From: Stramenopiles sp. TOSAG23-6
Lineage: Eukaryota; Sar
NCBI GenBank assembly: GCA_900128565.1
Contig: LT635988.1
Span: forward strand, 1-26,014
Length of the DNA stretch: 26,014 nt
Reading direction: 5' to 3'
In this document: piece after piece, positions 66 to 23,543 of the stretch
How the letters are laid out: every line of letters starts with the position of its first letter
Numbering within the stretch: position 1 is the stretch's first letter
The notes under the pieces: generated by a model
Seen by the model: the letters and a program-made list of their open reading frames with translations, nothing else
Told to the model about the DNA's origin: nothing
Database searches by the model: none
Made by a program: the position numbers and the translations under genes

Positions 66-3000
66 CAATCAAGGGTTGTGTCTCGAAGAGGAAAAAACAA
101 TATGGTAGTCAAGTATGGTTGCCAAACGGCAAAAATGCTAAAAAATATAAGCCTCAGGATTCATCGTTACGAAGAATTTTCAAAAGAATTTCTTCCGCCG
201 TCTAAATCAAGAAAAACTGATATGCTTGAGAAAGCTGAACGGATAATGAAAGATGTTCATTATAGAGTTTTTAAGGATGCTTTTTGGGGAGACAAGGAGA
301 ATGTTTTTAAGGCTGCCCTCAAAGAAGAAAAGTGTTTTGAAAAAAAAATTAAGAAAAATGTTATTTGTAAACATGAAATTACTATTGAATATCAAGACAT
401 AAAAAAAGAAAAACTCTGTATAAAATCTTATAAGCTTCACAGTAAAGGATGTGCAGTACATGTTCCATCTAGAGGATCAAGAAAAGCAGATTTATCAAGT
501 ACTTATAGCGAAGAATTGCGCCTCGAAGCTGTTGCAAATCCAATAAACTCAAAAAAAATTAAAAAAATTAGGAACAAGGAATTGATCAGAAGTGGATATA
601 CACAACAAACCGATCAAGACTACAGGTTCCTCCGTCGACAACAGAAAAAAATTATTGGAACCCCACTGGACCATGTTCAACTGGTAGTGACAAAGCTGTT
701 GAAGCATGTGAAGGGAAAAGATGATGAGACCCAGCTTTTTTTTGAGTTCACGTTATCAGAGGAAAAAGAATTTAGATTACATTTAAAATCAATAGGAATG
801 ATCCCGGGGTCATTTATTCGAATGCTGGAAGTTGAAGTTGACAATGTGCCCATCATAAGGAAGAATCGTTCCGGAGATGCTGCGCATGCAAATTCTCTCT
901 TTTTCGGAATTCTCCTAAATATTCTTGCTAGTGGTCCTGGGAATATGATACTTCTAGCTCTACTTGCATGGTGTTCAAGACATGAAAGTAATTCAACATG
1001 GGGTTTTACAAGTCATATTTATAAAGAGGTCTTAGGTGTAATTTTTGCATTGATGTCTGATGGTCGGAAAGGTTTGGCTGGTGTATTCAAACGTGAAATG
1101 GGAATCAACAGTTTCAAGCTTGCATGTTATATGCACTTAAAAAAAAATCTATTAGATAATGGGATTCCTCAAGACAAGATTGGTTTCTTTACAGCAATGT
1201 TCTATGCTCGTACAAGAGATAATTTTTATATAAATATGAAATACATGCTTGAAGACTTAAGTCAACGTCAAGTACAAACAATTAAAAGAATACTATGTGA
1301 AGAGAATCCTGTTTTCACTTGGTCTGCACCATTTTTCCCTGAAGGTGTAACAAGAGAAGGGATGTTCACCAATCAATTGAACGAATCATATCATGGCGCG
1401 ATGAACAAGCGTGAGACTCGGAAGCTTTTTCCTGGTCAAATGCTACAAGTAGAGCATGATGAACATTTCAAACGATACACACTACAGCTAGAAACTGCAA
1501 AGAAGGAGCTTTTACAAGGTTATATACTCGAGAAGAAATACAGAGATCGCGTTACTGAAGCACTAGAAGTCCTCGATAATTTAGAGGGGACATTCAGTAT
1601 GGTTGTCAATCCAAATGATCACATGAAGGCTGAAATAACTTACATAACTAAATCTGGTCGTCGGGGTGAAACACACATTTGCAGTGCTGTACCACCATAT
1701 GAGTGCAGCTGTAATACTATAAGAGATTGTGAGTATCTTTCATGTGTCAATTCAAACTATTTCCTTCGGAAGAGGAACATTGACCCAAGATATGCGGTTC
1801 ATGTGCGACATCGTATTACATCAAAAATTAAACTCATGGAAGCTGCTCTTAATGTAAAGACAAATAAAGACCTTCTTAATATAAATCTCTCAAAGGTGGA
1901 GCAGATCACGACACCGCTAATAAATGCAAAGAATAAACGACCAGCAGGTAGAATGACTACACAAAAACAGAGAGCTAAATATAGAAAACAAGAAAAGATC
2001 AATAAACGTAGATTTGAAGAAAACCCTAATATTATTTTCAAAGAACTGGAACGAACTGTTCGTTGTGTCCTCTGTGGTGGTCCTCATTTTGCAGATAGAT
2101 GTACAACATGCAGCGACGGCAAAGGTAATTCAATAAATCCTAATAGGATGCAACGGGAAATAGATGCGAAATCAATAATAATAAAAATAAACTCCATTCA
2201 AGATATACTTGACTTAATCCCGAAGGATATCAATGAATGGAATGAATTACTCAAGAAACAAACTCATAATAATAATAATAGCAAGAGTACAGAAACTCCT
2301 GAATATAGACGACTATGTCGGCAATTTGTGATAAACACATTGAAAGATTATGCACAAACATTGCAGCCTGTTCCGATTGCTCATCTATCTCTAACGCAGA
2401 GACAGCTATTGAGAGAAACCTATGTAAATCTTAATGCATCCTATAATCATAATCTGTTAAAACGAAAGTGTTCCAAACCTATTCAAGAAAGAACCAAAAA
2501 ACCTCGTACAAAATTGACTGATAAACATGTTCCGAAATCGACTGATAAACATGTTCCAAAATCGACTGATAAACATGTTCCGAAATCGACTGATAAAGAT
2601 GTTCCGGAATCGACTGATAAACATGTTGCAAAATCGACTGATAAACGTGTTGCTCTAAAAAATAAAAAAAAAATAAGAAAATTGAGTGCTGATGCTGCTG
2701 AAAAAAATCATATGAAATCTCTAGAAATTTTACAAAGAGGTGCAGTTGGACTAGTAAACCTGGGTAACACCTGCTACTTAAATAGTGTGGTACAATGTTT
2801 GTATGTTTTACTTTTTTTTTCAAATTTGAAATTGTTTTTCATAAGAAATTTTGTACCTTATGATATTTTTGAAATATTTTTCCAAAATACATGAGTTCTT
2901 GTGAAAGCCTCACACACTTCTTCCTTGAAAATTATGAAGAAAAAGAAGGAGTTCCGAATTATTATTTTAAATTAGTGAAGGAAATGTGGTCTTTGGAGTG

Positions 3001-4961
3001 TACTAATGTGTCACCAAATGACATAGTAAATCATTACAAAAAAAAACATTCGGTATTTTCATTGAATATACATCATGATGCATCCGAATGGATGGTTGCC
3101 TTACTAAATGACTTAGATGAAAGCTTGGCCGATAAATTTGTTGAGTCTAAACAAAATGACTCATCTATTCTTATTTATAATGAACAAAGTGTGGAATCAA
3201 AGACAAATGATGAAAATGACTTACGTAAAATATATCTCCAACAATATCAAACATCTGTCATAAGTTCGATATTTGGCTTTCTTGTAAAATGTACAATCAC
3301 TTGTCCAAATTGTAGTTTACAATCTTTGAAATTTGCAAGACAAATGAAATTGGATCTACCATTCACACAACCGAAAGGTTCGAATGATTTTGTTGAGTTG
3401 AAAGACTTGATTGATAATTTTTTGATAACTGAAGAACTGGATTCTGAAAATATGTGGAATTGTCTACAATGTAAAAAAAAAGTAAATGGAAAAAAACAAC
3501 TTGCTGTATTCAACAGTCCAACCATTTTGGTTCTCTGTCTCAAGAGGTTTGAATATATACATGAGAAAGGGAGGATCAAAATCAGTACCAAAGTCAAATA
3601 TCCTATAGAATTAAATATGTCAAACTTTATGTTGCCAGGTTCTTCAAATGTTGAACTGTATAATCTGGTAAGTGTTAGTCATCATATGGGTTCTGCTCAA
3701 ACAGGGCATTATGTAGCATATACACGTAATTTTTTAAACAAAAAATGGTACAAATTTGATGATGACTCAGTTGAAGAAATTATATGTACAGAATCAACAA
3801 TTGTCGATAATTCCGCATATATACTTTTCTATGAGAAAAAAAATTCAAAAATTCAAAATTGTAATTTAAAACAACAAACCGAGAAAAGTGAATTTTGTGT
3901 ATGCAAAAAGTTTAAAGATGAACGTATGATTATGTGTGAGGAGAAAAATTGTCCACATGGGAAATGGTTCCATTTAACATGTGTCAATGTACTTGAAAGT
4001 TATGCAAAGAATCCTTCCAATAAATGGTTCTGTAATGAATGTTCTGAAATAGATCTCGTTTCTGATTATGATACTGATGATGAAGAAATCCCCACAATTA
4101 AAAGGAAAAAAAAAAAAAAAACTTTTAAGATGGAATATTCAAAAAGAAAATTTACAGCATCACAGAAACGAAAAATTCATAAGCATCTTGCTTATTCTGA
4201 AGAAGAGTCTTCTGAAGAAGAGGATTCTGAAGGAGAGGAAAGCATGATTGATGTAAATGTATATCCTATTCGGCCAAGTGATTTTCGTCGTCTTCGACCA
4301 AAAACGTGGCTCAATGATGAGATCATAAATTGGTTTCTCTTGGATGTATTCCCAAAAGAATACAACGGACTAAAATTTCATTTTTTCAACACATATTTTT
4401 TTAAAAAGCTCTATTTTGAGGGAGGTTGTTATAATTATGAAAATGTCAAAAGATGGACAAAGAATCTAGAGAAAATGTTAAAAAAAGATGTAGTATTCAT
4501 TCCGATTAACCCACCTCTGCATTGGTCTTGGGTGGCTCTTTTTCCAAAGAAGAAAGAAATTCATTATTATGATTCTTTTCAGAATAAACTAAATGCACAA
4601 AGATATGGTCGTATAATAACCAGATATTTAAAAGATGCAACTTCAGATAAACTAAACATATCATTACCAAAGTGGAAGATAAAACATCCGGTGTCACCTA
4701 TCCAAACAAATCAGTGGGATTGTGGTGTATTTACAATCATCGGAATAATGCATGTTTTATATTTTTTCAATTTTGATTTTTTTTTTAATATGAAATTTTG
4801 TACCTAACAAATATTAATTTTTTTTTTGAAATATTTTTCCAAAATACATGTACACTTTTCTAGGAAAAACTTTTGATTATAAAGAAGAAGACATGCCACG
4901 TTTTAGATTATTATTGGCTTTTACAATATTAAAAAATTCTAAAAAAGAATTCAAAATATGA
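66..4961 (+). CDS. MULE transposase - USP - PHD - Ulp1 polyprotein (5' incomplete)
   Basis: Exons 66-2800, 2893-4749 and 4850-4961 join in frame into 1,567 residues, or 1,555 if translation starts at the ATG at 102. Residues about 200-700 resemble Mutator-like transposases: an acidic D259 in VEVDNV, then SDGRKGL (D332), a CYMH pair and NQLNESYHG. A CSC...CEYLSC cluster (about 547-560) resembles a degenerate SWIM finger, and CVLCGGPHFADRC (667-679) is a CX2CX3HX4C zinc knuckle. Six 8-residue TDKHVPKS-like repeats follow. The USP domain starts near 892 with Cys903 in NLGNTCYLN, His1184 in TGHYVAY and Asp1201-1203. A C4HC3 PHD finger spans about 1247-1295. After a Glu/Ser-rich linker comes a Ulp1/SENP domain with His1455, Asp1472, Gln1516 and Cys1522 (DCGVF), ending in FDYKEEDMPRFRLLLAF. 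Known MULEs can carry Ulp1 domains; a USP, PHD and Ulp1 together on the transposase chain is unfamiliar to me. The role of the proteases, perhaps removing ubiquitin or SUMO near the transposition complex, is inference. Confidence 0.85.
2511..2654 (+). repeat. Six in-frame 24-bp tandem repeats (TDKHVPKS units)
   Basis: Six consecutive 24-bp units based on AATCGACTGATAAACATGTT encode TDKHVPKS and the variants TDKDVPES, TDKHVAKS and TDKRVALK. Units 1-3 are nearly identical and units 4-6 carry substitutions. The tract is a hydrophilic, positively charged linker between the transposase part and the USP domain of the polyprotein. Repeat number is probably variable between copies or strains. Confidence 0.95.
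2801..2892 (+). mobile_element. Introner-type intron, copy B (in USP cysteine box)
   Basis: This 92-bp intron begins GTATGTTTTACTTT, contains GAAATTTTGTACC, and ends TTTTTCCAAAATACAT before G at 2893. It interrupts the first USP motif: splicing 2800 to 2893 gives QC-L-SSCES-LTHFFL (phase 2), the same spacing as [14 protein letters not shown] in the other USP of this window. A GT-AG alternative ending at ATGAG would stay in frame but would delete one residue of this motif. Confidence 0.88.
4750..4849 (+). mobile_element. Introner-type intron, copy C (in Ulp1 domain)
   Basis: This 100-bp copy begins GCATGTTTTATATT and ends TTTTTCCAAAATACAT before G at 4850; it contains GAAATTTTGTACCTAAC. Joining 4749 to 4850 (phase 2) restores the Ulp1 C-terminus: DCGVFTIIGIM followed by YTFLGKTFDYKEEDMPRFR. 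The first downstream AG (4861-4862, TCTAG) cannot be joined in frame to the GT at 4754-4755. The copy shows GC instead of GT at the 5' end if the same register is used. Confidence 0.88.
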
Positions 4962-4984
4962 AACATTTACAAAATAAAATTTAT

Positions 4985-7900
4985 TTATTTAATAAAATAT
5001 ATATAAAATTTTGGTATATTATTGTTTTTAACAGCAAATTTTTTTTTTATGATTTTTACACAATTTTTCCAATTCAATTGTTGATTTCCTTTGAAATCAA
5101 TCACAGATATTTTATGTTTTTGTTTGAGAAATATTGAAACATTAGCTGTATGCATTACAGCTGTATTCATAACGTTTTTGAATTCTTTTTTTGAAATTAA
5201 CTTAAAATTTTTTTTTTGGTATTTTGTTTGTATGTGTTTTTGGATAAATTCATCCAATTTCTTTTTTTTTTTTTCATTTTGTTTTTTTTCTATTTTTAAA
5301 CGTTTTTTTTTTAAATATAATTTTTTTAAAATATAGGAATTATTCACTTGAATCATTGGTGATTCTACAGTTGTTGACAAAGAGGAAACTGCGATATTCG
5401 ATTGACTTGTATCAAGATTAGGATTACTATTTACTATTATCTTTTTTTTGCTTCTTTTGAATATCTCTGAGGACGGTTTTAATTTTCTTTTTCGAGAAGC
5501 GAACGACGCTTTAGATATGTCTAGCACTACTTGTTGAAGTAACTTTGATTGTCTGTAAGGTTTATTAAAAGAATTGTTGCTGCAAATCTTCACAACATCA
5601 TCGCTTACAACACTGTGCATTGTTCCTCGTACACCTTCTGTTGTGTAAATATTATATGCGCTTTTACGTTTCGTGTCTAGTAAAAGGTTTCCAACAATCT
5701 TCGGATGTGTATCGACAAACATTGGAGAAATGACTGGTCGTAAATAGAATCCACCTGTAGCACATGTCTCTCTGTGAACCCATTCACCAGGAAAGAATGT
5801 TTTTTTGCCTCCAATATTGCAGAGATAAGATCCAGATTTAACGCGTAATGAATGTTTTATAAACTCGTCATTTATTGAACCTACCATTGAACCAACAATA
5901 CTACAGGAACCTAGAGAAACTGCATATCCAGAACATTTTCTTAAACTATCTTCTTTCTTATTATTCATTTTTGCTTTTGCAAAAAGAAAGTCCTTGTGTA
6001 ACCAGGCTATCGCTTCTTCAAGTATTTTACATTGCTTCTCATCAAGAAGGGCATCTTCACGGTTTTTTTTCGATAATGTCACTTTTGCAAGAGTATTCAG
6101 AAGTGGCCCAGATAAGGAAACATTTACAGCAATAGTTGATTGAGCGTACATCGCACAAAATAACTTTTGGAAATTTGACTGTACTCCGAATTTTGTGAGC
6201 TGACCAGCAAGGAACTTTTCACTACCTTTTGAATTGATTTGATCACCATACGAGTGTATTCCGGTTTTGCTATGAAGGCAGAGAATAGGAACTCTGGCAG
6301 CTTTTGGCAGAAGTGGGAAAATTGATCCTTCAATACAGATCTTATCACGAAGAGACCTATCCGATATGTTTTCGTTAAACAGAATTTCGGAGGAACATTT
6401 TTTACGATACCTTACAATACGATTTACTTCCTTTGAAGAGCAATTGGGGGTTGGGAATAAAGTCTCTCTTATTGTATCATAAAGTTTAGCTAAGTCATTC
6501 ACTCCATATCCGATTTTCTCTCGTGACATTTCAACTAATGTCATAAATTTATTTGTTGCTGCTGTTGTTGTTGTAGATGTTGTTGTTGTTGTTGGTGTTG
6601 TTGTAGATGTTGTTGTTGTTGTTGGTGTTGTTGTTGGTGTTGTTGTTGGTGTTGTTGTTGTTGATGTTGTTGTTATTGTTGTTGTTTTTACTGTTGTTGA
6701 TGTTGTTGTTGTTGTTTTAAGATGTCCTTCCGAAATATCCTTTCGAAAGACAATGTTTTTTCGAATTGTATCTATAACTTTTTTACATTTATAACCTCGC
6801 CATAGGGCCTGAAATTGTATTATACCAATCCGCCTCTTCCTAGCTCTGCCCATTTGCTTGTTAAGCCATAATAATGACGAAAAACTCAATTGTCTTTTTG
6901 ACAAGCTCAGGTTATCATCATTTTGGTTACCTTCCTCAGAACTAATTAAAATTTCCCACTTCTCTTTTAATCCTACAATATCTTTTTCTGATGCAAGATC
7001 CCACACTTTTCCATTTGAAGATCTCAAAGCACTTTCAGCAGCTGTTTCCGCGTCATTGCAAGGTTTGATTCCAGCACCAAAAGTTAAATATGCAGCCATT
7101 ACGGCTCTAGCTAAGAACGAGATAGGAATCGACAAATATGAAATTGAAAGTGATTCTGCTCCAGCCCTAGCTGAACCATTGACACCATTTCCGGATCTCG
7201 GTACAGTATAAGTTGTCTGGGCATTCCCTCCACCGGCAGGTAGCAACGCCCCGAAACGATTAAGAAGTATTCCTTTCGATCGATTGATACCCTTATATTC
7301 TGGAACAATACCAGGTACTCGCAAACCACGAAGATCCGCAAGATTCAATAATGTAGGTTCGAGAGAGTCTCCTTCAAAAGGGAGTAATACTTCAATATAT
7401 TTCTTATCTTTGGCGATAATTTTACGCTGTTGACTTTTTTTTCCTTGATCAACAAATTTCTTTGACTTTGATTGTGATGATGACTTCAATCTTTTAGAAG
7501 GATATCTGATTTCCCACATACTTTTCGTAATGTCTTTCGAAATTAACCTAGTGTGCGAAACATCAAACCGTGTACTTATTATGTTGCGTTGTAAAAAATC
7601 CCGGAACGTAGATGCAAATTCAGTATCGATAGGTACAGCACAGTGAGTTGCAACAGAGTTAATACATATTGGTGAATCTATCCATTCCGATAGATAACCA
7701 GAATGGACGTTATCACAACTTGATTTTTTCTGAACGCTCACTGGGCAGCGAGACGACATGTTTATCAAAACACAGTGCTCTTTACCGTAAGGAATTGAGT
7801 GACAGCAATGATTCCTTTTTGACTCATTTATTGCACCAACAATCGGGTTGGTGTATATGTTAAATTCTGTACCGCTCTTTTTAAAAACAGCCTGCAATTC

Positions 7901-9208: not shown

Positions 9209-9295
9209 TGCGGCTTGAGCGCAAAACCTTTCGTGAATTTCTCACGTGGTAGTGTGCTCAGAGGCCGCAAAGAAACTTTATTAAACTTCTCGCTT

Positions 9296-9318
9296 TTCTC
9301 GCTTTTCAAAAGCGAGAA
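9296..9318. promoter_or_regulatory. Perfect palindrome upstream of the 1,407-residue ORF
   Basis: TTCTCGCTTTT (9296-9306), one C, then AAAAGCGAGAA (9308-9318) form a perfect inverted repeat with 11-bp arms; the left arm is partly duplicated just before it (TTCTCGCTTTT from 9287). It lies 88 bp upstream of the start codon at 9208, so it could be a binding site or a leader hairpin. Function is not shown. Confidence 0.6.
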
Positions 9319-10207: not shown

Positions 10208-11800
10208 TTATATAAAATGTGTCCCAGTGAGTTCCGATGGAATTTCTTTCTGTGCACGGTTTTGCTTTATATTTTTTTTACCAGTCTTTTTTTTACGTGT
10301 CCTTTTCTTAGTTTCTCCATTTTCATCAAAACTATATTTCTTCTGTTTATTATGTTGTTTATACAAAGAGTCTTTTCGACCAATTAAAATCTCGTCACGG
10401 ACATCGTGTAAGACATCAGTAGGAACAACGCTATGCCACATGGCATTATATAGGTTTCGAAAGCGAACGCTAGTATCCTGATGTTGAATTTCATCTGGTA
10501 CATATTCCTTATAACTAAAACAGAAATGATGACCAACAGCGGCGAAAGCCATTTCAACACATATTAGAAAATCAGCGAGACCACGACCTACCTCATTTGT
10601 ACTCCAATTAAAGCTTTGTGTTGAATGCACCACCCCAACTTCCATTAATAATCTAATAATACAAGACTGCCAGAATGAAAAAAATACAACCAACTTTACA
10701 CATAAAAACTTATAAAAAGGTTCTATCGGTTGTAATTCCTCTTTGCAGCAGCGATAGAACATAACCAAACTATACATTGCCCACATCTGACTAAAACCAA
10801 CTGCGAATGTAACGTAGGTATACGCTTTCGACCATACAAATAATCCTTGAAGTTCGCCATATTCAGAATCCCACACGCATGGAATTTTAGGATCCGAAGT
10901 AGTAAAAGGCACACAAATGGGAATATTTTCTTTGAGAAGCTTAGCAAGCATGGGCGAATCGACACGAATATCGCTATCACATCTACCTTCAATACCATAT
11001 CCACATACGTATTTGCCACGAGATTCTAAAATAAATACAACAATGGCAAAAAAAAGTCGTACAGCAACGTATTGAAGACATCCCTGTTTCACCTTGTAAA
11101 TAAAATGCGAACCAAGACGCCATGGTGCAAATGGGAGTCGTGGGCCCCTAGTTATAAATAATCTTGCATGTGTTACCAAACGTGGATCTTTGCGTTTCAG
11201 AAGTATTCTTAGTTTACCCTCTGAGTTTTCAGATGTTAACGTTGACGAAACAGATTTGCTAGCAACCTGTTCACAGTATGATAAAACAAAATACGTAAAA
11301 GAATAAATCGTAAATGCTTCGTAAAAATCCTTAATCGTATCAATTGATAGTGCATTATGTCTTAAATAAAGCGCGCAATACGAACTAATGGCATACACTG
11401 GAACCATAATAATTATTCTAACAACATAACGTTGTAAATGGGGCTGATAATAATGAGTCAAGTGCATAAATATTTCATACGAACTTATAATAACCGCCAT
11501 GAGAACTGTAACCAGCGCAGATATATACGCAACAGATTCAACTGACACACCATCAATCAGTGCACGAATACTAAAATACACTGTGATGGAAAATGTTACA
11601 ACTACAGTAAATACCAAAAGGCAAGCAGTACACGAGATTGCAGTTAAAGACGCGATAGTTTTACGCACTCGTCCGACTTCGGGAGATGCGTGTAGTGATG
11701 AAGTTGCCAAGAGAGTAGCTGATGGTATTTCTTCATCGTCATTGGCGTGCACCATTTCAGATACAGGTAAAATGTCGTCAACACATCGAGGGGAATGCAT
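10208..11800 (-). CDS. TMEM184 / organic solute transporter alpha family membrane protein
   Basis: The ATG is at 11800 and the protein is 530 residues. The sequence matches the Solute_trans_a (TMEM184/OST-alpha) pattern: several hydrophobic helices beginning near residue 50, HYYQPHLQRYVVRIIIMVPVYA, FYEAFTIYSFTYFVLSY, a membrane segment VRLFFAIVVFILESRGKY, VKLVVFFSFWQSCIIRLL and DFLICVEMAFAAVGHHFCFSYKEY. The C-terminal tail is strongly basic (KKRTRKKKTGKKN) and cytosolic-looking. The region between YVCGYGIEGRCD and KIPCVWDSEYG holds Cys residues absent from the short family members and may be an extracytoplasmic loop. Family members include bile-acid/steroid transporters and proteins of unclear function; the substrate here is unknown. 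No introns are visible. A 16-bp palindrome lies 33 bp upstream of the start. Confidence 0.88.
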   Translation of the reverse strand: MHSPRCVDDILPVSEMVHANDDEEIPSATLLATSSLHASPEVGRVRKTIASLTAISCTACLLVFTVVVTFSITVYFSIRALIDGVSVESVAYISALVTVLMAVIISSYEIFMHLTHYYQPHLQRYVVRIIIMVPVYAISSYCALYLRHNALSIDTIKDFYEAFTIYSFTYFVLSYCEQVASKSVSSTLTSENSEGKLRILLKRKDPRLVTHARLFITRGPRLPFAPWRLGSHFIYKVKQGCLQYVAVRLFFAIVVFILESRGKYVCGYGIEGRCDSDIRVDSPMLAKLLKENIPICVPFTTSDPKIPCVWDSEYGELQGLFVWSKAYTYVTFAVGFSQMWAMYSLVMFYRCCKEELQPIEPFYKFLCVKLVVFFSFWQSCIIRLLMEVGVVHSTQSFNWSTNEVGRGLADFLICVEMAFAAVGHHFCFSYKEYVPDEIQHQDTSVRFRNLYNAMWHSVVPTDVLHDVRDEILIGRKDSLYKQHNKQKKYSFDENGETKKRTRKKKTGKKNIKQNRAQKEIPSELTGTHFI

Positions 11801-11832
11801 CAAAATCCTACTGTTGGCTAGAACCGACTACC

Positions 11833-13042: not shown

Positions 13043-13313
13043 TCTATACGCGTATGATCAGACCATCTTGAAAGATACTCTTCATTCATAATAATAGCCA
13101 TATTACGGTACCGTATAGGTTGCCACATACCCAACGAACGACGTTACAGTCAAAGAAATCACGAAATATATAGAAAAAGGTCAAAGGAGTCAGTGCAAAA
13201 GTTTGCTATGGGCTGATTGTGTCGAGCCCTTAACCTATTGCATGCGCTTAGTTCATTCTACAAGAAGGAGTAATTTTACACCAGTGTTAAACCTACTCTA
13301 TTTCTTGGTTACA
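13043..13313. promoter_or_regulatory. Shared divergent intergenic region
   Basis: These 271 bp separate the start codons of the minus-strand membrane protein and the plus-strand ABC transporter, so both promoters must lie here. The plus-strand frame is open from 13203, but ATG at 13314 (MTEMLKL) is preferred because the paralogue has no matching upstream extension. No conserved promoter element was identified. Confidence 0.55.
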
Positions 13314-16079
13314 ATGACGGAAATGTTGAAATTGGATCTTCTCACAGAAAATATGGAAGATGGCATATGTAATAAAAAGAATCAGCGACCTAACGCGAAG
13401 TCCTTCAAGATGCGTTCACAGTGCCGCGGTATGGGTGCGAAGTTAACTTGTTTTTACAAAGTACTTCAATTCAGTCAATCTAAATTTTACTACTACTCGT
13501 CTTACTTAATTCTTTCGTTATGCCTAGCGAGTACTTCTACGTCATTCATTATGCAGCAAACTTCAATAAATAACGGGGTTTTACCCTCTGCTAAACTTCG
13601 TCTCATAGTTGTGTTTGCACTGACTGCAATTTCCGGTTGCGTACCTGTATTTTTAGTCGCAACTGGCCTTAACGTCTTACGAGAAATGAGGTTATCACAG
13701 AGTATAATGATGGATCTTGGAATGTGGTTCTTCGACACATTATGCCTTGCAGTCTTGTGCGTGGATGACCTCGCTTTTGTATCTCCGTACACAAAGCAAT
13801 ACCTTGCAGGTGCGACGTTGCTCACAGCATTAAGATTGAACACTCACAACGTTACAATGAGTGGCTTAAGTCGTGTTTATGATGTTGTAGGTGAAAATAT
13901 GCAAGATGGTTATCGTATTGATGCTCAAGATGTTNGGAACACTATTCGTAAAGCATCAATCTCTCCGTCAGCAAAAGCTGTAATGGAACGAAGTCTTGAA
14001 AATACACAAATGGACCGAAACGGTACAATTAGTGCAAGACAGTACATGGCTTTGTTCAATCTCTTCCGCAGTACTTTGCGATGGCGGCATGCGACGGAAC
14101 GTAACCGTAAATCTGTGGATATGGCGCTTGCCCGTATAGTTCAGGAGAACCCTACTATATCTATTGGAAACAACAACCCTAAAGGTCTGAAAAGATGCTT
14201 AACGGCGACTCAGAAAAATGAAGAAGATGCTCGTGAAAATTTACTCGCCGAACTTTTTGACCTTATGCGAGAAGGTAAAGGGAGTCGCGAGGAAGAATTT
14301 TCAATGTGGGTAACATTTATGAAATCGATGGGGCTTCTCATGCGAGACCAAAAAATGACAGCATCCCTTTCTATTACCTGTATGGTCTTATTTGCGTGTT
14401 GTATGCCTCTTCAGGCGTATCTTGCCGGTGAAATGGTACGAATGTGCAACGCTAGAAGAGTAGCAACCCCTGATGAACATGATAAAGACCAAGGTAAGTT
14501 TTTCACATATTTTGGTGTCATCATTGGTCTCTACTTTTTTAGTGACGTAATGTCATATACGTATCTTTACCTCTGGGGTAAAATGGGGGGAAACTCTGTC
14601 AGACGTATTCAAATGGAAATGATCCAAAAGGTCTGTATTGGTGATACTACATTTGGTGATAAATTTCGGCCTGGTAAACTAGGTAGCCGTTTCTCTTCAT
14701 CTCTTGCGGGTATATTTACTTTGTGGACAAATGGGGCGCAGTTTATTGCACTACCACCAATTCTTTTAATGGTGGCATTTGGTTTTATGGGCACTGTGAG
14801 TACAGCATACGTAATTTTTTCATTCGGCGCGATACCGTTCATTCTCTCTTTGGAATTTCTTTCAAAACGATCCTTATCCAGTTCGCGAAAGAACGTCACA
14901 GCTATGGGTATAATTTTCGGGGCGTTCCAGAATACAGTCGATATGCGCGATGCACTTCGAACTTGTGATGGATCAACGGAGTACCTTCTTGAAAACCTTG
15001 CTCATCCGGCCGATCAAGCTGGCAAGTCATGGGCACACTCTTTTCATTGGACATTATATTTACAAAACACATTTAATTCTGTTGCGTGGGGTTTTCAGTG
15101 TATTTCAACCTGTACCTTTCTTTTAGCGCTATGGAATGAAGTAATTCAGCTTGATGAATTTGTCGCTATTCAAGGTTACGTTGCTGCTGCGACCGTCCCG
15201 ATGTTTCAGGTTGGTATTGGTGCTCGATTTATTACATCTGCTGCTGGTGACGTTATCGCTATTCTTGAAATTCTTAACTGCCCAGATGTAGAAGACCGAA
15301 AAAAAGGTGCAAAGATGAAAGTCATTGAAGGAAAAGGTTTTGCTGTTTCCATTGAGAATGTTTCATTCCGATATACCCCTGAAGGACCCCTGGTGTTGAA
15401 GGGTATCACTGCCAATATAGAAGCTGGCAGTTATGTTGTGCTTTGTGGGGGTAGTGGTAGTGGGAAGTCAACTCTTCTTAGTATCCTAATGCGATTTCGT
15501 GATGCTGCTGGTGGTCGTGTCTGTATCAATGGACAAGATATTAGTAAAACATCACTCGAATCATTCCGTCAATCAAGTTCGGTGGTTTTCCAAACTACAC
15601 TCATTTTAGATGGATCTATAGCTGAAAATATTGCTTTTGGTCTCGAAGGTGACGATATTCGTGAGCGCGTGGAACAAGCAGCTCGTGATGCAGAAATTTA
15701 CGACACTATTGTAGCCACGCCGGACGGTTTCGAAACTCAAATTGGTAAGCGCTCCACGGTAAATTTGAGTGGTGGTCAATTGCAGCGTATTTGCATTGCT
15801 CGTGCTCTTGCTAGAAAGCCAAAACTGCTGTTATTGGATGAAGCTACAAGTGCACTTGATCCAATCACAGAAACTTCCATTATCCAAACATTAGAGCGTC
15901 TTCGTGAAGCTAGTAAGGGACAGCTTACAATTATTAGTGTGTCACATCATCCACTTACGGCACTGAACGCAGATAATATTTTTGTCATGGAAGATGGCCA
16001 AATCGCTGAAACAGGTACTTTTGAATCTCTGGTTGCAGCTGGTGGGCGTTTTGCGGATTTGGTGGATTCAACAAAGTAG
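13314..16079 (+). CDS. ABCB-like half-transporter, tandem paralogue 1
   Basis: The product is 921 residues from the ATG at 13314. The N-terminal third has about four hydrophobic segments (from near residue 55 to 190), then a degenerate EF-hand-like loop near residue 232 (QMDRNGTISARQ; positions 1 and 12 are not acidic, so calcium binding is doubtful). A six-helix ABC transmembrane domain begins near residue 345 (SLSITCMVLFACC). The nucleotide-binding domain has Walker A GSGSGKS (Lys718), Q-loop VVFQ, signature LSGGQ (818-822), Walker B LLLLDEA (Asp842, Glu843) and H-loop His878, all intact. One TMD plus one NBD means it must dimerise, perhaps with its downstream paralogue. One base is ambiguous (13935); the paralogue suggests a Trp codon there. 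It carries no introns. Substrate is unknown. Confidence 0.93.
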   Translation: MTEMLKLDLLTENMEDGICNKKNQRPNAKSFKMRSQCRGMGAKLTCFYKVLQFSQSKFYYYSSYLILSLCLASTSTSFIMQQTSINNGVLPSAKLRLIVVFALTAISGCVPVFLVATGLNVLREMRLSQSIMMDLGMWFFDTLCLAVLCVDDLAFVSPYTKQYLAGATLLTALRLNTHNVTMSGLSRVYDVVGENMQDGYRIDAQDVXNTIRKASISPSAKAVMERSLENTQMDRNGTISARQYMALFNLFRSTLRWRHATERNRKSVDMALARIVQENPTISIGNNNPKGLKRCLTATQKNEEDARENLLAELFDLMREGKGSREEEFSMWVTFMKSMGLLMRDQKMTASLSITCMVLFACCMPLQAYLAGEMVRMCNARRVATPDEHDKDQGKFFTYFGVIIGLYFFSDVMSYTYLYLWGKMGGNSVRRIQMEMIQKVCIGDTTFGDKFRPGKLGSRFSSSLAGIFTLWTNGAQFIALPPILLMVAFGFMGTVSTAYVIFSFGAIPFILSLEFLSKRSLSSSRKNVTAMGIIFGAFQNTVDMRDALRTCDGSTEYLLENLAHPADQAGKSWAHSFHWTLYLQNTFNSVAWGFQCISTCTFLLALWNEVIQLDEFVAIQGYVAAATVPMFQVGIGARFITSAAGDVIAILEILNCPDVEDRKKGAKMKVIEGKGFAVSIENVSFRYTPEGPLVLKGITANIEAGSYVVLCGGSGSGKSTLLSILMRFRDAAGGRVCINGQDISKTSLESFRQSSSVVFQTTLILDGSIAENIAFGLEGDDIRERVEQAARDAEIYDTIVATPDGFETQIGKRSTVNLSGGQLQRICIARALARKPKLLLLDEATSALDPITETSIIQTLERLREASKGQLTIISVSHHPLTALNADNIFVMEDGQIAETGTFESLVAAGGRFADLVDSTK

Positions 16080-16673
16080 AGTCATAGATAGCAAACATGT
16101 AATAGTGGTCAATACAAAGATTCTTTTCATAGCATAATGAAGGGAATTTTTATTTAAAGATTTTTATTTGAAAATACTCTGTAAAAATAAAACTGTCATT
16201 ATCTGTTCGTTCCTGTAATAACTATTCTTTTAGTAATACTTTTCTTGTTTTAGAATTTAATGTGGGTTTTATTCTATAGAAAATATCAGGTTACAAATAA
16301 TGTTCATTTAGTTTGACTTTATATGAACTGGTTTATGTGTTTATATGCAATGTGACTGCCTACGGTGTAATCCGCATTAGAGATGTGATAGAATTGTTCA
16401 ACAGCTAGTGCTAGCTATAGCAAAGGCCAATAATTTTTAGTTGTCGAAAATTTGAAATTCCAACAAAAAATTAAAATTCTTTCAAAAACACGAAATCATG
16501 AAAACTCAAAAAATTAAAAACGCCGTTACGGACTGTTACTTTTAGAATCTAGATATACAGTACAAAACTCATACTCATATAGATACAGTACAAAACTCAT
16601 ACTCATACCTGGAGTGTTTGCACTAAGAATCTGCCATTTTTAGTTCAAACAAGGACTTATCTTCTTATTAAGT
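16080..16673. other. Intergenic region between ABC paralogues
   Basis: No gene is seen in these 594 bp. It contains the 3' flank of paralogue 1, a small hairpin AGCTAG-TG-CTAGCT (16403-16416), and two copies of a 25-bp sequence beginning ATACAGTACAAAACTCATAC (16555-16579 and 16583-16607, period 28), ending about 67 bp before the start codon of paralogue 2. The paired repeats may be promoter sites. Confidence 0.6.
16555..16607. repeat. 25-bp direct repeat pair upstream of ABC paralogue 2
   Basis: Two identical 25-bp copies starting ATACAGTACAAAACTCATAC and ending TCATA lie 28 bp apart, 67-119 bp before the ATG at 16674. No equivalent pair is seen upstream of paralogue 1, so the two transporter genes probably differ in regulation. 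Confidence 0.85.
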
Positions 16674-19457
16674 ATGCATAATGGCACTCATGCAACCGAT
16701 TCAGTTGCTCGCGACGTAGTGAAAATTGCTATCTTAGGTGAGCTCGAGGAGAAAAGCAAAGACAAAGTAAAAAAAAAGTCTTTTTCAAAGTTTATGAGGA
16801 AGCGTGGCCTGGGTAGGAAATTGTCATCCTTCTACATGGTGCTTCGATTCAGCCAGACTAAGTTCTATCTAATTGGTTCATATGTAGTTCTTTTTCTCTA
16901 TTTATTAAATGTTTCAGCATCCTTTGTTGTACAACAAGCAACAGATACCTCATTCAATTCCAGAGATTGGCGTCTGATTCTCTGTTGTGTAATATCGGGT
17001 TTGTCAGGGTGGGTGCCGTTGATATTAGTAGGAACAGGTCTGCCAGTACTACAAGAGATGAAACTTTCCCGAACTCTAATATTTGATTGTTTGATATGGT
17101 TTTTGAATTTCGGATTTCTGGTGGGTTTAGCCATACCAGGAGATTTACTTGAAACTTCTTACATAAAGACATTCCTCGGCGCAGCAGCCTTGCTCACAGC
17201 ATTGAGATTAAACACCCATAATGCAACCATGAGTGGTTTACATCGCGTGTTTATTACAGTTGGTGATTTTGAAAATCCTTATACGGTGGACGCTCAAGTT
17301 GTATGGCAAGTTCTCCGCAAGGCACTCATTTCACCATCTGCAAAGGCATCCATGGAACAAAGTCTCGAACGGACAAAAATGGACATTAATGGTAAAATTA
17401 GTCCTCGTCAATACTCCGCGTTACTGGCCATTTTTCGTGATACTTTAAATTGGAATGAGAAGGTTGAAAAAAGACGAAGAAGTTACGACAAGGCATTAAA
17501 AATGGCGTATGCAGATGACCCATCTATGAGTATTGGCCCGAACATAAGTGAAAATCTTCAACTGCAAGGCGCTGTGTCTGTAAGAACTGAAAAGAATGAT
17601 CGTGAAGCCTTATTGGCTGATTTAGCGTATCTCGTTCACTCTCAAGAAGGAGGTAAAACCAAAAATGGCGTATCGCTGGTTGCTACATTCAGTAAGGCTA
17701 TGTATCTTCTTGTTCGCGGCGAAAAGATGAAAGCTTTTCTTTCCGTGTTATGCATGTTTCTATTCGCTTGCTGTACTCCAACCCAGGCTTACCTCGCTGG
17801 TGAAATGGCAGCAATGTGCAACACCAGGCGAGTAGCAACCATTGATAAGAAAGATGAAGACAAAGATACGTTTTACACATATTTTGGTGTCATCATTGGT
17901 CTCTACTTTTTTAGTGACCTAATGTCATATACGTATCTTTACCTCTGGGGTAAAATGGGAGGAAACTCTGTCAGACGTATTCAAATGGAAATGATCCAAA
18001 AGGTCTGTATTGGTGATACTACATTTGGTGATAAATTTCGGCCTGGTAAACTAGGTAGCCGTTTCTCTTCATCTCTTGCGGGTATATTTACTTTGTGGAC
18101 AAATGGGGCACAGTTTATTGCACTACCACCAATTCTTTTAATGGTGGCATTTGGTTTTATGTCTACTGTGAGTGTTCCATACCTAATATTCTCATTTGGT
18201 GCTATTCCATTCGTATTTTCACTTGATTTTCTCACAATGCGATCTCTTTCAAGCTCTAGGAAAAATGTAGCAGCAAGTGGTGCAATTTTTGGAGCGTTTC
18301 AGAATGCAGTTGATATGCGTGATGCACTTCGAACATGTGATGGATCAACCGAGTATCTTCTTGAAAACCTTTCTCCCATCGCTGATGAATCGGGTACTGC
18401 GTGGAAAGAGTCATTCCACTGGACATTGTATTTACAAAACACATTTAATTCAGTTGCATGGGGTTATCAGTGCTTGTCAACTTGTACGTTTATTGTTGCA
18501 CTTTGGAATGAGGTGATTTCCCTGAATCAATTTGTTGCCATTCAAGGCTATGTTGCTGCTGCGACTGTCCCGATGTTTCAAGTTGGTATCGGTGCTCGAT
18601 TTATTACATCCGCAGCTGGCGATGTAACTGCTATTGTTGAAATTCTCAACTGCCCAGACATTGAAGAAAGACAAAAAGGGGAGGATTTAAAAATAGATAA
18701 TAACCAAGGATGCTGTGTTACGTTAGAGAATATTTCTTTCCGCTATACCCCAGAAGGACCTCTCATTCTGAAGGGAATTACTCAAACTATTGCTGCCGGA
18801 AGTTATGTTGTGCTTTGTGGGGGTAGTGGTAGTGGAAAGTCAACTCTTCTTAGTATCCTAATGCGATTTCGTGATGCTGCTGGTGGTCGTGTCTGTATTA
18901 ATGGGCAAGATATCAGTAAAACATCACTTGAATCATTCCGCCAATCAAGCGCTGTGGTTTTCCAAACTACACTAATTTTAGATGGTTCTATAGCTGAAAA
19001 TATTGCTTTTGGTCTTGAAGGTGACAATATTCGTGAGCGTGTGGAACAAGCAGCTCGTGATGCAGAAATTTACGACACTATTGTAGCCACACCGGATGGT
19101 TTCGAAACTCAAATTGGTAAGCGATCCACAGTAAATTTGAGTGGTGGTCAATTGCAGCGTATTTGCATTGCTCGTGCTCTTGCTAGAAAGCCAAAACTGC
19201 TGTTATTGGATGAAGCTACAAGTGCACTTGATCCAATCACAGAAACTTCCATTATCCAAACATTAGAGCGTCTTCGTGAAGCTAGTAAGGGACAGCTTAC
19301 AATTATTAGTGTGTCACATCATCCACTTACGGCACTGAACGCAGATAATATTATAGTTCTCAGTAATGGTGCTGTGGCTGAAACTGGTACTTTTAAATCT
19401 CTGGTTGACGCTAAAGGACATTTTGCTAAATTAGTTGATTCTGGAGAGCCGGGATGA
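16674..19457 (+). CDS. ABCB-like half-transporter, tandem paralogue 2
   Basis: The product is 927 residues from the ATG at 16674, collinear with paralogue 1: four N-terminal hydrophobic segments, degenerate EF-hand-like loop (KMDINGKISPRQ), six-helix ABC transmembrane domain, and an intact NBD with Walker A Lys722, signature LSGGQ (822-826), Walker B Asp846 and His882. The first 60 residues differ from paralogue 1 and are more basic (KDKVKKKSFSKFMRKR). Two DNA tracts, 17876-18161 and 18801-19352, are almost identical to paralogue 1 while the flanking coding DNA is much more diverged. It carries no introns. Head-to-tail arrangement indicates unequal duplication; a homo- or heterodimer with paralogue 1 is an inference. 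Confidence 0.93.
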   Translation: MHNGTHATDSVARDVVKIAILGELEEKSKDKVKKKSFSKFMRKRGLGRKLSSFYMVLRFSQTKFYLIGSYVVLFLYLLNVSASFVVQQATDTSFNSRDWRLILCCVISGLSGWVPLILVGTGLPVLQEMKLSRTLIFDCLIWFLNFGFLVGLAIPGDLLETSYIKTFLGAAALLTALRLNTHNATMSGLHRVFITVGDFENPYTVDAQVVWQVLRKALISPSAKASMEQSLERTKMDINGKISPRQYSALLAIFRDTLNWNEKVEKRRRSYDKALKMAYADDPSMSIGPNISENLQLQGAVSVRTEKNDREALLADLAYLVHSQEGGKTKNGVSLVATFSKAMYLLVRGEKMKAFLSVLCMFLFACCTPTQAYLAGEMAAMCNTRRVATIDKKDEDKDTFYTYFGVIIGLYFFSDLMSYTYLYLWGKMGGNSVRRIQMEMIQKVCIGDTTFGDKFRPGKLGSRFSSSLAGIFTLWTNGAQFIALPPILLMVAFGFMSTVSVPYLIFSFGAIPFVFSLDFLTMRSLSSSRKNVAASGAIFGAFQNAVDMRDALRTCDGSTEYLLENLSPIADESGTAWKESFHWTLYLQNTFNSVAWGYQCLSTCTFIVALWNEVISLNQFVAIQGYVAAATVPMFQVGIGARFITSAAGDVTAIVEILNCPDIEERQKGEDLKIDNNQGCCVTLENISFRYTPEGPLILKGITQTIAAGSYVVLCGGSGSGKSTLLSILMRFRDAAGGRVCINGQDISKTSLESFRQSSAVVFQTTLILDGSIAENIAFGLEGDNIRERVEQAARDAEIYDTIVATPDGFETQIGKRSTVNLSGGQLQRICIARALARKPKLLLLDEATSALDPITETSIIQTLERLREASKGQLTIISVSHHPLTALNADNIIVLSNGAVAETGTFKSLVDAKGHFAKLVDSGEPG

Positions 19458-19877
19458 AAGTAATAGGAGAAAAAGTAAAATTATTTTAAAGATACACTTA
19501 CACTCAATCGGCAAAGATTTCATTCTGAGCGAACAAACTTGAAAATACTAGAACATAAAATTGTAGTTTCAGAAATCATCTGTGCATCAAGATTATATCT
19601 TCATAACGATCTCAAATGTAGTGGTTAGTTTTGACTGTAAAAATACAAAAAAATAAAAGAAAAAATAATATTATTTTTCCAATTAATTTTAAAAACATAC
19701 AGAATTTCCTTATTATTGTTTATTTGATATTTCGTGTTTACGGGGATTGCTCGCTCCTACTGGTACAGTAATAGATTGATAGTGGTAGACTTCTTCGACT
19801 CTGTTTTAGAATATAAAAAATGTTTGTTTTTTCAAGATGATTCAGCATTTCTGTAAGTCATTCCTTGAAATCGTTTG
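19458..19877. other. Intergenic region, no gene seen
   Basis: These 420 bp between paralogue 2 and the methyltransferase gene are AT-rich with no credible ORF or RNA gene. They must hold the ABC gene's 3' end and the methyltransferase promoter. Confidence 0.6.
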
Positions 19878-20993
19878 ATGAATGTGTTTATTAAAGATCT
19901 TGATCCAGGTAAAGCTTCTTCTGAGCCCAACAGTGTGTCATCCAAGTGTGTGGCACTATCTATAGATCTGATGATCACTTTGAATCACCAAATAGAACTT
20001 TTTCGTCAAATAGAGTATAATTCAGGATTCCCTTCCCTCAAGAAGTATAATTCACTACGTTTTTCAAAGCCTCTGTTACCAGAAGATCGCAGGATAAGCT
20101 ATGTTTATGAAAAGTCAAATCCTGTAATTATGGTTGAGTTACTCTCTAAAATACGCAACTTTGGTTGCTTACCAAAACTGGCAACTTCAATGGATGGTAT
20201 ATTCTATGATTTAGGATCTGGTGAAGGTCACGTAGTATTTGCGGTAGCTGCATTGTGCAAAGAATTTAATATACTGAAAGGAATAGAACTGAACTGGGGA
20301 CGATGTAGTTTTTCAAAGGCGTTTTCGCAATGTTGTACTTTTTCAAAATTGAGTTTCAAATTTTTTTTTTCATACTAAATTCCGTACCTAACAAAAAAAA
20401 ATCTAAAATGTTTTTTTCACAATACATGGTTATCCCACTTAGACAATATTATTTCACAAAATAAAAAAAATAAAGACATAGGATATACTCCGAAACATCA
20501 AAAACAGAAACAAGAAATAAAAAAAAATGAAAGGGAAATGACTGAAATTGTCAATATACCAGAAAATATTCATTTTTTACAGGAAGATTTTATTGACGGT
20601 AGAATTGACTGGAGCGACGCTTCTTGTGTTTGGGTTTCATCTACTTGTTATGATGATGTGACAATGTCACATATTTGGAACCTTGCGAAACAGCTTTGTC
20701 ACAATTCAGTGGTTGTAACTTATGTACGTTTTCAAAATTAAATTTCGAATTTTTTTTTGTACCAAATTTTGTACCTAACAAATTTTTACTAAAAATAATA
20801 TTTTTCCAAAATATATGATAAACCACTACGACCCATAAAACTCCGACTTGATAATTCTGAAACAACTTTACGAAAAAACCCTAACTTTTGTACATTTTTT
20901 TCAGTTGAAGACATAGGTATTTTTTCTCTTAGTCCTACATGGAGGCCTCGAGTATTCGTAAATGTGCGTAATGAAATTCCTTGGCACCTTTAA
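19878..20993 (+). CDS. DOT1-like SAM-dependent methyltransferase (three exons)
   Basis: Exons 19878-20334, 20428-20723 and 20817-20993 join in frame into 309 residues. The SAM-binding motif I is FYDLGSGEGHVVFAVA, followed by the motif II-like LKGIELNWGR, then EDFIDGRIDWSDASCVWVSSTCYDD and a strand VVVTYDKPLRP. This order (DLGSGxG, GIE, DF, W.DA..V..ST.YDD) matches DOT1-type class I methyltransferases of protists, whose best-known member methylates histone H3 Lys79; a different protein target is possible. Both introns belong to the introner family. A Lys/Gln-rich insert (KKNKDIGYTPKHQKQKQEIKK) follows the first junction. The protein is short for DOT1, essentially the catalytic core. The start is the first ATG of the open frame. 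Confidence 0.75.
20335..20427 (+). mobile_element. Introner-type intron, copy D
   Basis: This 93-bp copy begins GTACTTTTTCAAAATTG and ends CACAATACAT before G at 20428; it contains TAAATTCCGTACCTAAC. It is the most diverged of the complete copies. Joining 20334 to 20428 (phase 1) gives FSQC-W-LSHLD and keeps the methyltransferase frame open; reading through meets a stop near 20376. Confidence 0.85.
20724..20816 (+). mobile_element. Introner-type intron, copy E
   Basis: This 93-bp copy begins GTACGTTTTCAAAATTA and ends TTTTTCCAAAATATAT before G at 20817; it contains AAATTTTGTACCTAAC. Joining 20723 to 20817 (phase 0) gives VVVTY-DKPLRP and an open frame to the stop at 20991-20993. Reading through gives an immediate in-frame TAA. 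Confidence 0.87.
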
Positions 20994-21288
20994 AGATCTT
21001 TTTTATTGTGGAAATTTTGAAAATTCAATGTGAAATGAGATTTTTTTTTTGTGTGTTTTCGTGTTTTCAGTTTGCGAATCGGTTAATTTGAAACCGTCAT
21101 TCAATTAGGGTATTCCAATTCAATTTCTTTTTTTCTCAACGGTGATTATTTACCGTGTTTCAATGTATAAATAAAGAGGAATTGGTTGCTCTTTCTATTT
21201 CTTCAATCCAAATGATTTATATGTGGTGCTATAAGAATATATTTTTAGCTTATTTTTGTAGAACTTTTGCTTTATAGTTATTTGTCTC
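20994..21288. other. Intergenic region before the USP gene
   Basis: These 295 AT-rich bases hold the 3' end of the methyltransferase gene and the promoter of the downstream USP gene. A TATAAATA stretch at about 21165 is the only TATA-like sequence noticed; it lies some 120 bp before the ATG. Confidence 0.5.
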
Positions 21289-23543
21289 ATGTCAACTGGT
21301 GGTAGAAAGGGACGCTTCAACAGCTACAATAATCGTAGTGGTAACTATTTATCTTCAACTCAGTACACGCACCAGAAAAATCATTGTAGAAATGATACAA
21401 GTGGTGGGACTGATAGCTACAGGACAATTAAAAGCAGTACCAATAGAATGAATAGAACTAATATTCAAAAAAATGATCGTAGACTGGTGGACTCAAACTA
21501 CCGTCAAACTTCAAATCTAGACAACTTGAGAAAATTTGACTCGTCTTATTCGAGTACTTCCTCATTGATGCATTCTTCCCACGACCAGAGACATTCTAAT
21601 AGCATGAAAAGATCATATAAACGCCAAGGTTCGTATCTGCTCGGAGGTTCGCCATCTTTGCATAGCCAAAATAGATCCTATTCAGGCAGCAGTTTCAGTA
21701 ATTTAACTATGGAACAGCAACTTCCTGACAAAGAAAGCACTGAAAAAAATAATTATAACTGTAAAACACAGTCAAAACAACAACTATTGAGCCAAACGAC
21801 AAACAAACGACTTGAAAGAGCAATGAAGCATTTAGATTTGTCAAGTAATTTTACATTAAACCGATCCACAACACCAATTTTAAATTCAAACAAATTCGCT
21901 TCAAAGGATACGTCTCACATGCTTTCATATAATAGTTATGAAGATTCAAACAAATTCTCTTCAAAAGATACGTCTCGCATGCTTTCATATAATAGTTATA
22001 AAGACCCGAGTAGTGTCCCCAGTACGATGAATTACTCAACTTCGGCATTACCAATACATTCAAAGAAAGTGGAAAATTGCACTAACCCATTAGTTATTTC
22101 AAACACATCAAGAATTTCCAAACAAAATGATTTATGCCATCCTCTACATAGATACAGTAGATGTAACGGGAGAAATCGACGAATCTCCGACACACATGTT
22201 TATGATAATAGCTTTCGGAATAGCCCCATTAGTAAGACTGGTAATAAAGTTATTGGCATCAAAAGTCAAAATGAATTTTCTCAACAAAAGAGTGACTGCA
22301 CGAAGAATGAATTATATGCAGTGTTTTCTAATCCTTCAACACCTCGTTGGCCACTACCACCGTCGACACCACTAAGAGAATCTCCTGCAGGTAAAAAGGC
22401 TGGCTATTGTGGTTTACGCAATTTAGGTAATACTTGTTTTATGAATTCTGCATTACAATGTTTGAGTAACACTCCTACTTTAACTGATTATTTTCTTAGG
22501 GGAAGACATCAACGGCAAATCAATAGGACAAATCCATTGGGAATGCGTGGTGAGTTGGCTACTGCATATGCTGACTTGATATCATCAATGTGGAATGAAA
22601 CAAAACAATCAATTTCACCATCTAAATTCAAAGCAGTTATAAGTAAATTTGCACCTCAATTTAGTGGTTATCGGCAGCACGACAGTCACGAATTATTAGC
22701 ATTCCTTCTAGATGGTATTCATGAAGATTTAAACCAAGTTAAAAACAAGCCATATAGAGAAATGCCAGATGATTCATCAATGCAAGACATCGAATTAGCG
22801 AATTTATTTTGGCAGCATCATACAGCTCGAAATCAATCAATTATTGTAAATCTTTTTCATGGACAATTTAAATCACGAGTACAGTGTCCTGAGAAGTCAT
22901 GTACGTTTTATTTTTTTTTCAAGTTCGAATTTATTTTTCGTACGAAATTTTGTACCTAACAAATTTTTGAATTTTTTTTGAAATATTTTTCCAAAATACA
23001 TGTAAACATACTTCACTCACATTTGATGCGAGCATGTATCTATCAGTTCCGGTTGTAAAAAAAAGTAGAGGAAGAAGTAGTAGTACTCATTTAAGAGACT
23101 GTCTAGCAAAGTTTTCGACACAGGAACAATTAGGTAAGAATGATCAATGGTATTGCTCAAAGTGTAAAAAATTTAAACAAGCGTATAAACAGCTTACGAT
23201 TTGGAAATTACCTCGTATACTTGTATTGCATCTCAAACGTTTTCAACATGGAAAATACCGACGGAGTAAACTTGAGACTTTGGTTGAATTTCCAATTTCT
23301 GGATTAGATATGTCTTCATACTTGGTGCCTGGATCTCCTGATTCAAAAATGTCTAATTTATATGACTTAATTGCGGTATCTAACCACTCTGGAAATATGA
23401 GAGGAGGGCATTATACCGCATGTGGATTAAATCAGGTGACTGGCCAATGGCTATGTTTTAATGACGCAATGGTAAGTTCAGTGAGTGAATCTTCACTTGT
23501 ATCTAAATCAGCATATATATTATTTTATAAAAGAAGACAATAA
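21289..23543 (+). CDS. Ubiquitin-specific protease (C19 deubiquitinase), two exons
   Basis: Exons 21289-22900 and 23002-23543 join into 717 residues. The first 375 residues are Ser/Asn/Thr-rich and probably disordered, with a 20-residue tandem duplication near 200-239. The USP domain begins with [19 protein letters not shown] (catalytic Cys383), followed by [45 protein letters not shown], the zinc-ribbon pair CPEKSC / [14 protein letters not shown], and the His box GGHYTAC (His674) with Asn691-Asp692 in CFNDAMV. It ends [11 protein letters not shown], the usual USP C-terminus. It resembles the USP8/USP4/Doa4-type catalytic core; no ubiquitin-like or DUSP domain is visible. It cleaves ubiquitin from proteins or chains; substrates are unknown. 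The first zinc pair is CX4C rather than the common CX2C. Confidence 0.93.
21886..22005 (+). repeat. 60-bp in-frame tandem duplication in the USP gene
   Basis: Two adjacent 60-bp units (21886-21945 and 21946-22005) encode SNKF(A/S)SKDTS(H/R)MLSYNSY(E/K)D twice, with only a few substitutions. It lies in the disordered N-terminal part and is probably a recent slippage or unequal-exchange event. Confidence 0.95.
22901..23001 (+). mobile_element. Introner-type intron, copy F (in USP zinc-ribbon region)
   Basis: This 101-bp copy begins GTACGTTTTATTTT, contains GAAATTTTGTACCTAAC, and ends TTTTTCCAAAATACAT before G at 23002. Joining 22900 to 23002 (phase 1) gives [22 protein letters not shown], the expected USP sequence. 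CATGTA occurs at both junctions, so the exact cut can slide by a few bases. Using the first downstream AG (GATGCGAG) would delete the conserved SLTFDAS residues. Confidence 0.9.

Follow-up and report, generated by a model that had tools for sequence, protein, structure and literature searches.

Why do introns in three different genes of one contig share the sequence of their bodies, and how are they removed if they do not end in AG? These questions are raised by contig LT635988.1 of Stramenopiles sp. TOSAG23-6 (assembly GCA_900128565.1), a stretch of 26,014 nucleotides (nt) which is referred to as the window throughout and which carries five complete introns and one partial intron of similar sequence. 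Our reading, to which we assign a probability of about 0.82, is that they belong to an introner-like intron family of ~94 nt, present at hundreds of dispersed sites in a probable MAST-3 host, and that each copy is removed from the RNA. Copies of the element are dispersed over the assembly, they lie in coding sequence in the sense orientation only, reading frames are restored at ends fixed by the element itself, and some of the junctions are placed by protein homology. The members found in the window, with one probable branch point as an example, are the following:

1 to about 65, plus strand: partial family intron, its 5' part cut off by the contig start, recognised by alignment and by a pattern match at C38:22-62 (C38 being the window), with ATACAC as its end
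2801..2892, plus strand: family intron 1, GT...AT, in the USP domain of the gene 1 fusion, splitting the UCH domain (profile positions 1-22 and 17-254)
4750..4849, plus strand: family intron 2, GC...AT, in the Ulp1/SENP domain of gene 1, with a spliced product that is gap-free against SENP2 from IM to YTF
20335..20427, plus strand: family intron 3, GT...AT, in a DOT1-like gene, the upstream exon giving a weak DOT1 match
20385..20392, plus strand: TACCTAAC, probable branch point of intron 3, read from the sequence
20724..20816, plus strand: family intron 4, GT...AT, in the DOT1-like gene, whose spliced open reading frame (ORF) has 312 amino acids (aa) and two introns
22901..23001, plus strand: family intron 5, GT...AT, in a USP4/15-like ubiquitin hydrolase gene, the UCH halves matching profile positions 1-136 and 130-254

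The original prediction, made from the window alone, had placed five complete introns and one partial intron in three genes, and its intervals are exact to the base (1 to about 65 for the partial copy), with ends that the further analysis upheld. It had also claimed a shared body sequence, which is borne out by a mean pairwise alignment score of 47.25 among the five introns (92, 100, 93, 93 and 101 nt long) against 11.75 in dinucleotide-shuffled sequences (16.95 being the highest mean among 300 sets); among single pairs, three of ten (scores 30, 34 and 36) lie under the top shuffled pair (36.5). The order of blocks common to the window copies is GTAYGTTTT, a T-rich stretch, AAATTTTGTACCTAAC and TTTTTCCAAAATACAT, each block having variants; the copy at 4750 departs from the predicted start in beginning with GC. 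That every visible intron comes from this one family is right for the interruptions seen in the window and too broad for the genome, where at least one non-family intron occurs in an SLC37-like gene (locus L030, reverse complement ~100-224, between GTF and QSSGW by homology). This intron has no profile match, is found only on the near-identical contigs C13 and C14, and its best-fitting ends are likewise not GT-AG (one case, judged by eye). Three features of the family had been overlooked, namely the missing 3' AG, a probable branch point in GTACCTAAC and a 2-base direct repeat at the ends. Splicing of intron 1 yields QCLSSC at the junction of the spliced product, and the same site is empty (CAATGTTTGAGT) in the paralogous USP gene at 22453, the second USP of the window; the empty sites seen are only paralogous ones within the window.

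The genome was searched over 8.03 Mb in 408 contigs of a partial assembly, the contigs checked being all above 10 kb. A strict pattern gave 520 exact matches, and its reversed control gave 0; the 520 include duplicates that stem from several contigs of palindromic or near-identical appearance (such as C2, C4 and the pair C13/C14). The mirror-image positions of the matches on C2, C4 and C396 suggest palindromes such as single-cell whole-genome amplification produces, while C13 and C14 are near-identical. A profile was built on 152 unique copies, excluding those with unrecognisable ends or a flank shorter than 30 nt, and it retrieved 331 matches (E<1e-3) from the window and from 118 other loci, not all of them unique since loci overlap; a block-shuffled control retrieved none. 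These hundreds of further copies, together with the closest sampled copies having unrelated flanks, uphold the idea of dispersed copies, for which an empty genome search had been named as a possible refutation. When window positions 2750-2950 served as the query, 47 matches outside the window started at query positions 38-58 and stopped at 141-151, that is, between window positions 2787-2807 and 2890-2900, so that similarity stops at the intron ends, and past -3 and +2 the exons show only weak base preferences. Because a pattern like the strict one fits 26 of 63 copies that were not, by position, anchors of a fetch, the family may amount, as a rough estimate, to a thousand copies in these 8 Mb. 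The repeat also seems to break the assembly, because many matches sit near contig ends (at least 20 of 100 strict matches listed lie within about 50 nt of one).

The 152 unique copies are 75-127 nt long (median 94.5) and have a mean pairwise identity of 69%. A single cluster holds 123 of them at a mean identity of 78%, and 7 others form a second, more diverged one. The highest identity, 96.8%, is reached by copies with unrelated flanks, and the flanks look unrelated in all of the 25 most similar pairs printed. Splicing the sequences yielded at least 42 open frames with a length of 180 aa or above, many of which look like conserved proteins by eye; a sequence search was made for some of the spliced products, which were USP, ArgRS, REV1 and SENP. 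There are thus many similar introns at non-homologous gene positions, as is expected of introners. In the window no Rfam family was found at gathering scores, and an 18-base core piece had no exact match in the viral_contigs collection, from which records near this genome were possibly left out. Two exact matches of the core piece in cyanobacterial genomes were taken as chance. Two family-like introns on the reverse complement of locus L056, near 81 and 674, carry telomere-like CCCTAACCCTA runs near the 5' end.

Removal from the RNA was assessed from reading frames and from protein homology. The element was cut as GT...ATACNN and 120 + 120 nt of flank were joined, which was feasible at 144 sites (8 of the 152 copies lacked flank). 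Removal leaves an open sense frame at 110 of the 144 sites, a number that falls to 17-22 if the ends are shifted by 1 or 2 (mod 3) and to 21 if the element is retained; the antisense frame is open at 7, of which 6 are open in sense too. Removing all recognised family introns, with partial profile matches left out, opens 113 of 139 junctions, compared with 21, 12 and 20 at shifts of -1, +1 and +2. Flanks that are only partly open fail to discriminate (17 sense and 16 antisense of 139). The Ulp1 product runs gap-free over its junction against SENP2, and in the SLC37-like gene three of four junctions are gap-free against the EukProt protein g403.t1 (50% identity), the fourth falling in a variable stretch. 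Since sense frames are restored at 110 of 144 sites, as opposed to 17-22 with shifted ends and 7 in antisense, the element appears, by reading frames and protein homology, to behave as an RNA intron. The introner-family interpretation of the original prediction is thus supported both by the genome-wide copies and by frame restoration in the sense direction.

The copies share a GTAYGT donor, a conserved ACCTAAC and an ATACNN end. In 79 copies the donor has G at +1 in 92% and T at +2 in 91%. CTAAC, which we take to be a branch-point motif, is present in 140 of 152 copies, with its second A at a median of 36 nt from the intron end (n = 140), so that ACCTAAC is the probable branch point; equivalents occur in the remaining window copies, intron 1 having the variant TACCTTAT. 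The last two bases of the intron are AT in 122 of 152 copies and AG in 3, which is not the 3' AG of canonical U2 introns. NN is usually a copy of the last two exon bases, which leaves two ways of placing the junction. In intron 3 a stop codon would arise if the downstream copy of the dinucleotide were kept. The repeat is broken in 38 of 152 copies, and 28 of these have one clear frame: in 5 the frame is open with the upstream copy kept and closed with the downstream copy kept, the reverse is never seen, both versions are open in 22 and neither in 1. Because of the junction homology and of this 5 to 0 count, the intron is taken to run from GT through the downstream copy of the repeat (GT...NN). 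Intron ends of the AT...AC type, with the downstream copy exonic, were considered and are disfavoured by the same count, with 22 copies undecided and 1 failing both.

As to the host, two window proteins (10208-11827 on the minus strand and 21262-23543) match the EukProt entries GSMAST32.ASY1.ANO1.2810.1 and GSMAST32.ASY1.ANO1.2812.1 block for block, and we read the label GSMAST32 as a MAST-3 single-cell assembly. It is on account of these matches that we place the host, as the most likely assignment, among the uncultured MAST-3 stramenopiles; it looks like a tiny uncultured marine predator. MAST-3A and MAST-3F are represented by co-assemblies of 18.9 and 21.1 Mb in the relevant part of PMC5778133. 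The public gene models misread the family introns in 5 of 5 cases compared: model 2812.1 mis-splices gene 3, running 20 nt into the intron at 22901 and resuming at 23034, and model 955.1 gets none of the four family introns in the SLC37 gene right. Model 2810.1 also drops two in-frame, non-GT-AG stretches of the ORF at 10208-11827 (minus strand); the public models are therefore poor in general, given that stretches other than family introns are left out as well. It is suggested that the public models of this host are wrong at many introns, which would distort both gene counts and intron surveys that start from annotation.

The U2 spliceosome would remove the copies by using GTAYGT as donor and ACCTAAC as branch point, and the 3' cut would fall at ATAC-NN, some 36 nt downstream of the branch A, with an NN that in most copies differs from AG. 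Each copy would have been inserted as DNA, like a small non-autonomous transposon, doubling two target bases, mostly AT. The upstream duplicate would remain exonic and the downstream duplicate would form the last two bases of the intron; splicing would therefore restore the original reading frame. The repeat does covary: among the 44 sites with upstream bases other than AT, 16 repeat their own dinucleotide at the end of the intron, against 2.05 expected (0 of 20,000 permutations), and TT sites agree in 10 of 23 cases. We read this, tentatively, as a 2-base target duplication that later drifted towards AT. A bolder version, which we put forward tentatively and hold to be somewhat less probable than its opposite, is that the MAST-3 U2 spliceosome is largely freed from the 3' AG and that the element, through its branch point, spacing and paired ends, sets the cut; one transposon-like family would exploit this, its last two intron bases copying those of the exon, so that almost any site would be spliced without a trace. 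If RNA confirms the junctions, a free-living ocean protist would offer a working spliceosome with a non-AG 3' splice site and hundreds of closely similar test introns; it would then be seen how a transposon can provide donor and branch point itself and leave the acceptor to the target, and the family would be a natural test of the origin of new introns and of the real requirements of splicing.

A number of observations weigh against the main reading, some of them against the removal and others against the mode of spread. The frame test does not separate the element end from ends shifted by 3 or 6 (101-110 of 144 open), a shift of +3 with all family introns removed still opens 102 of 138, and 26 of 139 junctions stay closed over 120 + 120 nt, so that the exact base of the cut rests on homology in few genes. 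At intron 5 the USP product carries two residues (KS) beyond USP4 and USP15 just upstream of the junction. No U1, U2 or U6 was found over the cut-off in the partial assembly, with uninformative controls and two U1 matches at E 3.4 and 4.0. As regards the spread, 28 of 44 non-AT sites mismatch at the other end, and at CT sites only 1 of 9 agrees while 7 of 9 end in AT; because of these mismatches and of the CT class, target duplication is not proved, and 27 loci of the sample were picked because CT or TT precedes the intron. The inverted repeat at the termini, ATGTAT/ATACAT with the direct repeat included, is short (6 bp), and pairing of the ends is modestly above controls (3.33 against 2.46 and 2.17; 80 of 152 copies). 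A search for the single mariner-type Pfam family PF01359 found no transposase, its control being uninformative, and no mobile partner of the family was found.

The alternatives differ in what is removed and in how the copies spread. An element that is short and AT-rich, carries a 2-base direct repeat and leaves almost no trace on removal also recalls segments excised from DNA, like the internal eliminated sequences of ciliates, whose orientation is independent of the gene. Here the orientation tracks the gene (among 144 sites, 110 sense and 7 antisense frames are open, 6 of the latter at sites open in sense too), donor and branch-point motifs are conserved, the genes of the window use standard stops, and the host matches MAST-labelled entries and not a ciliate, which makes excision from DNA very improbable. 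Only slightly better placed, and still improbable, is the view that these are ordinary GT-AG introns with a true 3' AG nearby, the end of the element being a lookalike. The GTATGT-like donor and the probable branch point are indeed ordinary, three of 152 copies do end in AG, and AGs between branch point and end are rarer than composition predicts (30 of 151 against 63), as if AGs there mattered. Nevertheless, in a comparison with 90 nt flanks, the first AG after the branch point and the first AG at or after the element end open only 51 and 52 of 141 frames, respectively, against 119 at the element end, and protein homology puts junctions at non-AG ends.

Some copies form pairs on a single contig, spaced by a few hundred bases, as might be seen if introns had been duplicated along with their host genes by expansion of a gene family or a transposon; the flanks, which look unrelated in the 25 closest pairs listed, the diversity of the host genes and the single copy, in the assembly, of the N-terminal part of gene 1 render this the least credible of the alternatives. 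Spread by way of RNA, through reverse splicing and copying back into DNA, deserves more weight, and we regard it as a real if doubtful competitor of DNA transposition: copies in open frames are essentially sense-only, donor and branch point are part of the element, and the terminal inverted repeat is weak. By contrast, the covariation of the 2-base repeat beyond chance is not predicted by reverse splicing, and purifying selection alone could clear antisense copies from coding DNA.

The genes that carry the window introns, all on the plus strand, are:

66..4961, plus strand: host gene 1, an N-terminal part of ~900 aa without an assigned domain, followed by USP, PHD and Ulp1/SENP domains
19869..20993, plus strand: host gene 2 (open frame), DOT1-like methyltransferase in three exons, a weak match
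21262..23543, plus strand: host gene 3 (open frame), ubiquitin carboxyl-terminal hydrolase in two exons

The DOT1 match of the upstream exon of gene 2 scores 20.1 bits, under the Pfam cut-off of 23 bits. Elsewhere in the window, the ORFs at 13119-16079 and 16644-19457 are tandem, long and uninterrupted, ABC-transporter-like by eye, with stretches 78-88% identical at a spacing of 3372 nt, and a GTT-type repeat at 6523-6743 gives a threonine tract in a minus-strand ORF of 1418 aa without a Pfam match.

Among known systems, a survey of introners in 3,325 genomes (PMC9860276) describes highly similar introns at unrelated sites, as here, and, according to the legend of its Fig. 2C, the target supplies the 3' splice site in some families whose elements bring the 5' one; the parts of that paper drawn upon mention rare GC and GA donors and no family without a 3' AG. 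The survey, as those parts present it, began from annotated introns and could miss the present family, because its introns are misread in the public models. Introner candidates of mirusviruses are, in the portion of PMC12768974 concerned, mostly GT-AG. In the open-access literature no paper joining introners with MAST-3 was found, in a wider literature search "introner" was absent among the matches listed, and among open-access introner papers since 2023 none is on MAST by its title; "intron" occurs only twice in PMC5778133 and is absent from the main text of PMC8163842 and PMC12614181. The non-canonical introns of diplonemids and euglenids, in the sections of PMC12621601 and PMC4770533 consulted, resemble the family in non-standard terminal dinucleotides and pairing ends, and direct repeats are noted there in a recently gained euglenid intron. 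These sections do not describe a single repeated family, and the euglenid CAG/CTG pairing between +4..+6 and -8..-6 is missing here, where the consensus is T/C-G-T and A-A-A (79 copies).

The closest likeness is with the introner elements of Amoebophrya A25 and A120, which, according to the passages of PMC7789003 used here, share with the present family repeated introns, non-canonical ends, direct repeats at the boundaries, complementary ends, a transposon-like spread and a life in marine protists. In those passages the Amoebophrya introners form 252 and 1,954 families, with terminal dinucleotides without a clear splice signature, direct repeats of 3-5 nt and inverted repeats of 8-20 nt. By contrast, one family dominates the present sample, its inverted ends are short (6 bp), and the GTAYGT donor and CTAAC are conserved; only a 2-base direct repeat was tested, and it stands out, while by eye some copies share more (up to 5 bases at 22901). 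The host lineages differ too, Amoebophrya being a dinoflagellate and the host here a stramenopile. We call the elements of the window a new introner-like family, most like those of Amoebophrya though short of their repeat lengths, with an unusual non-AG 3' splice site.

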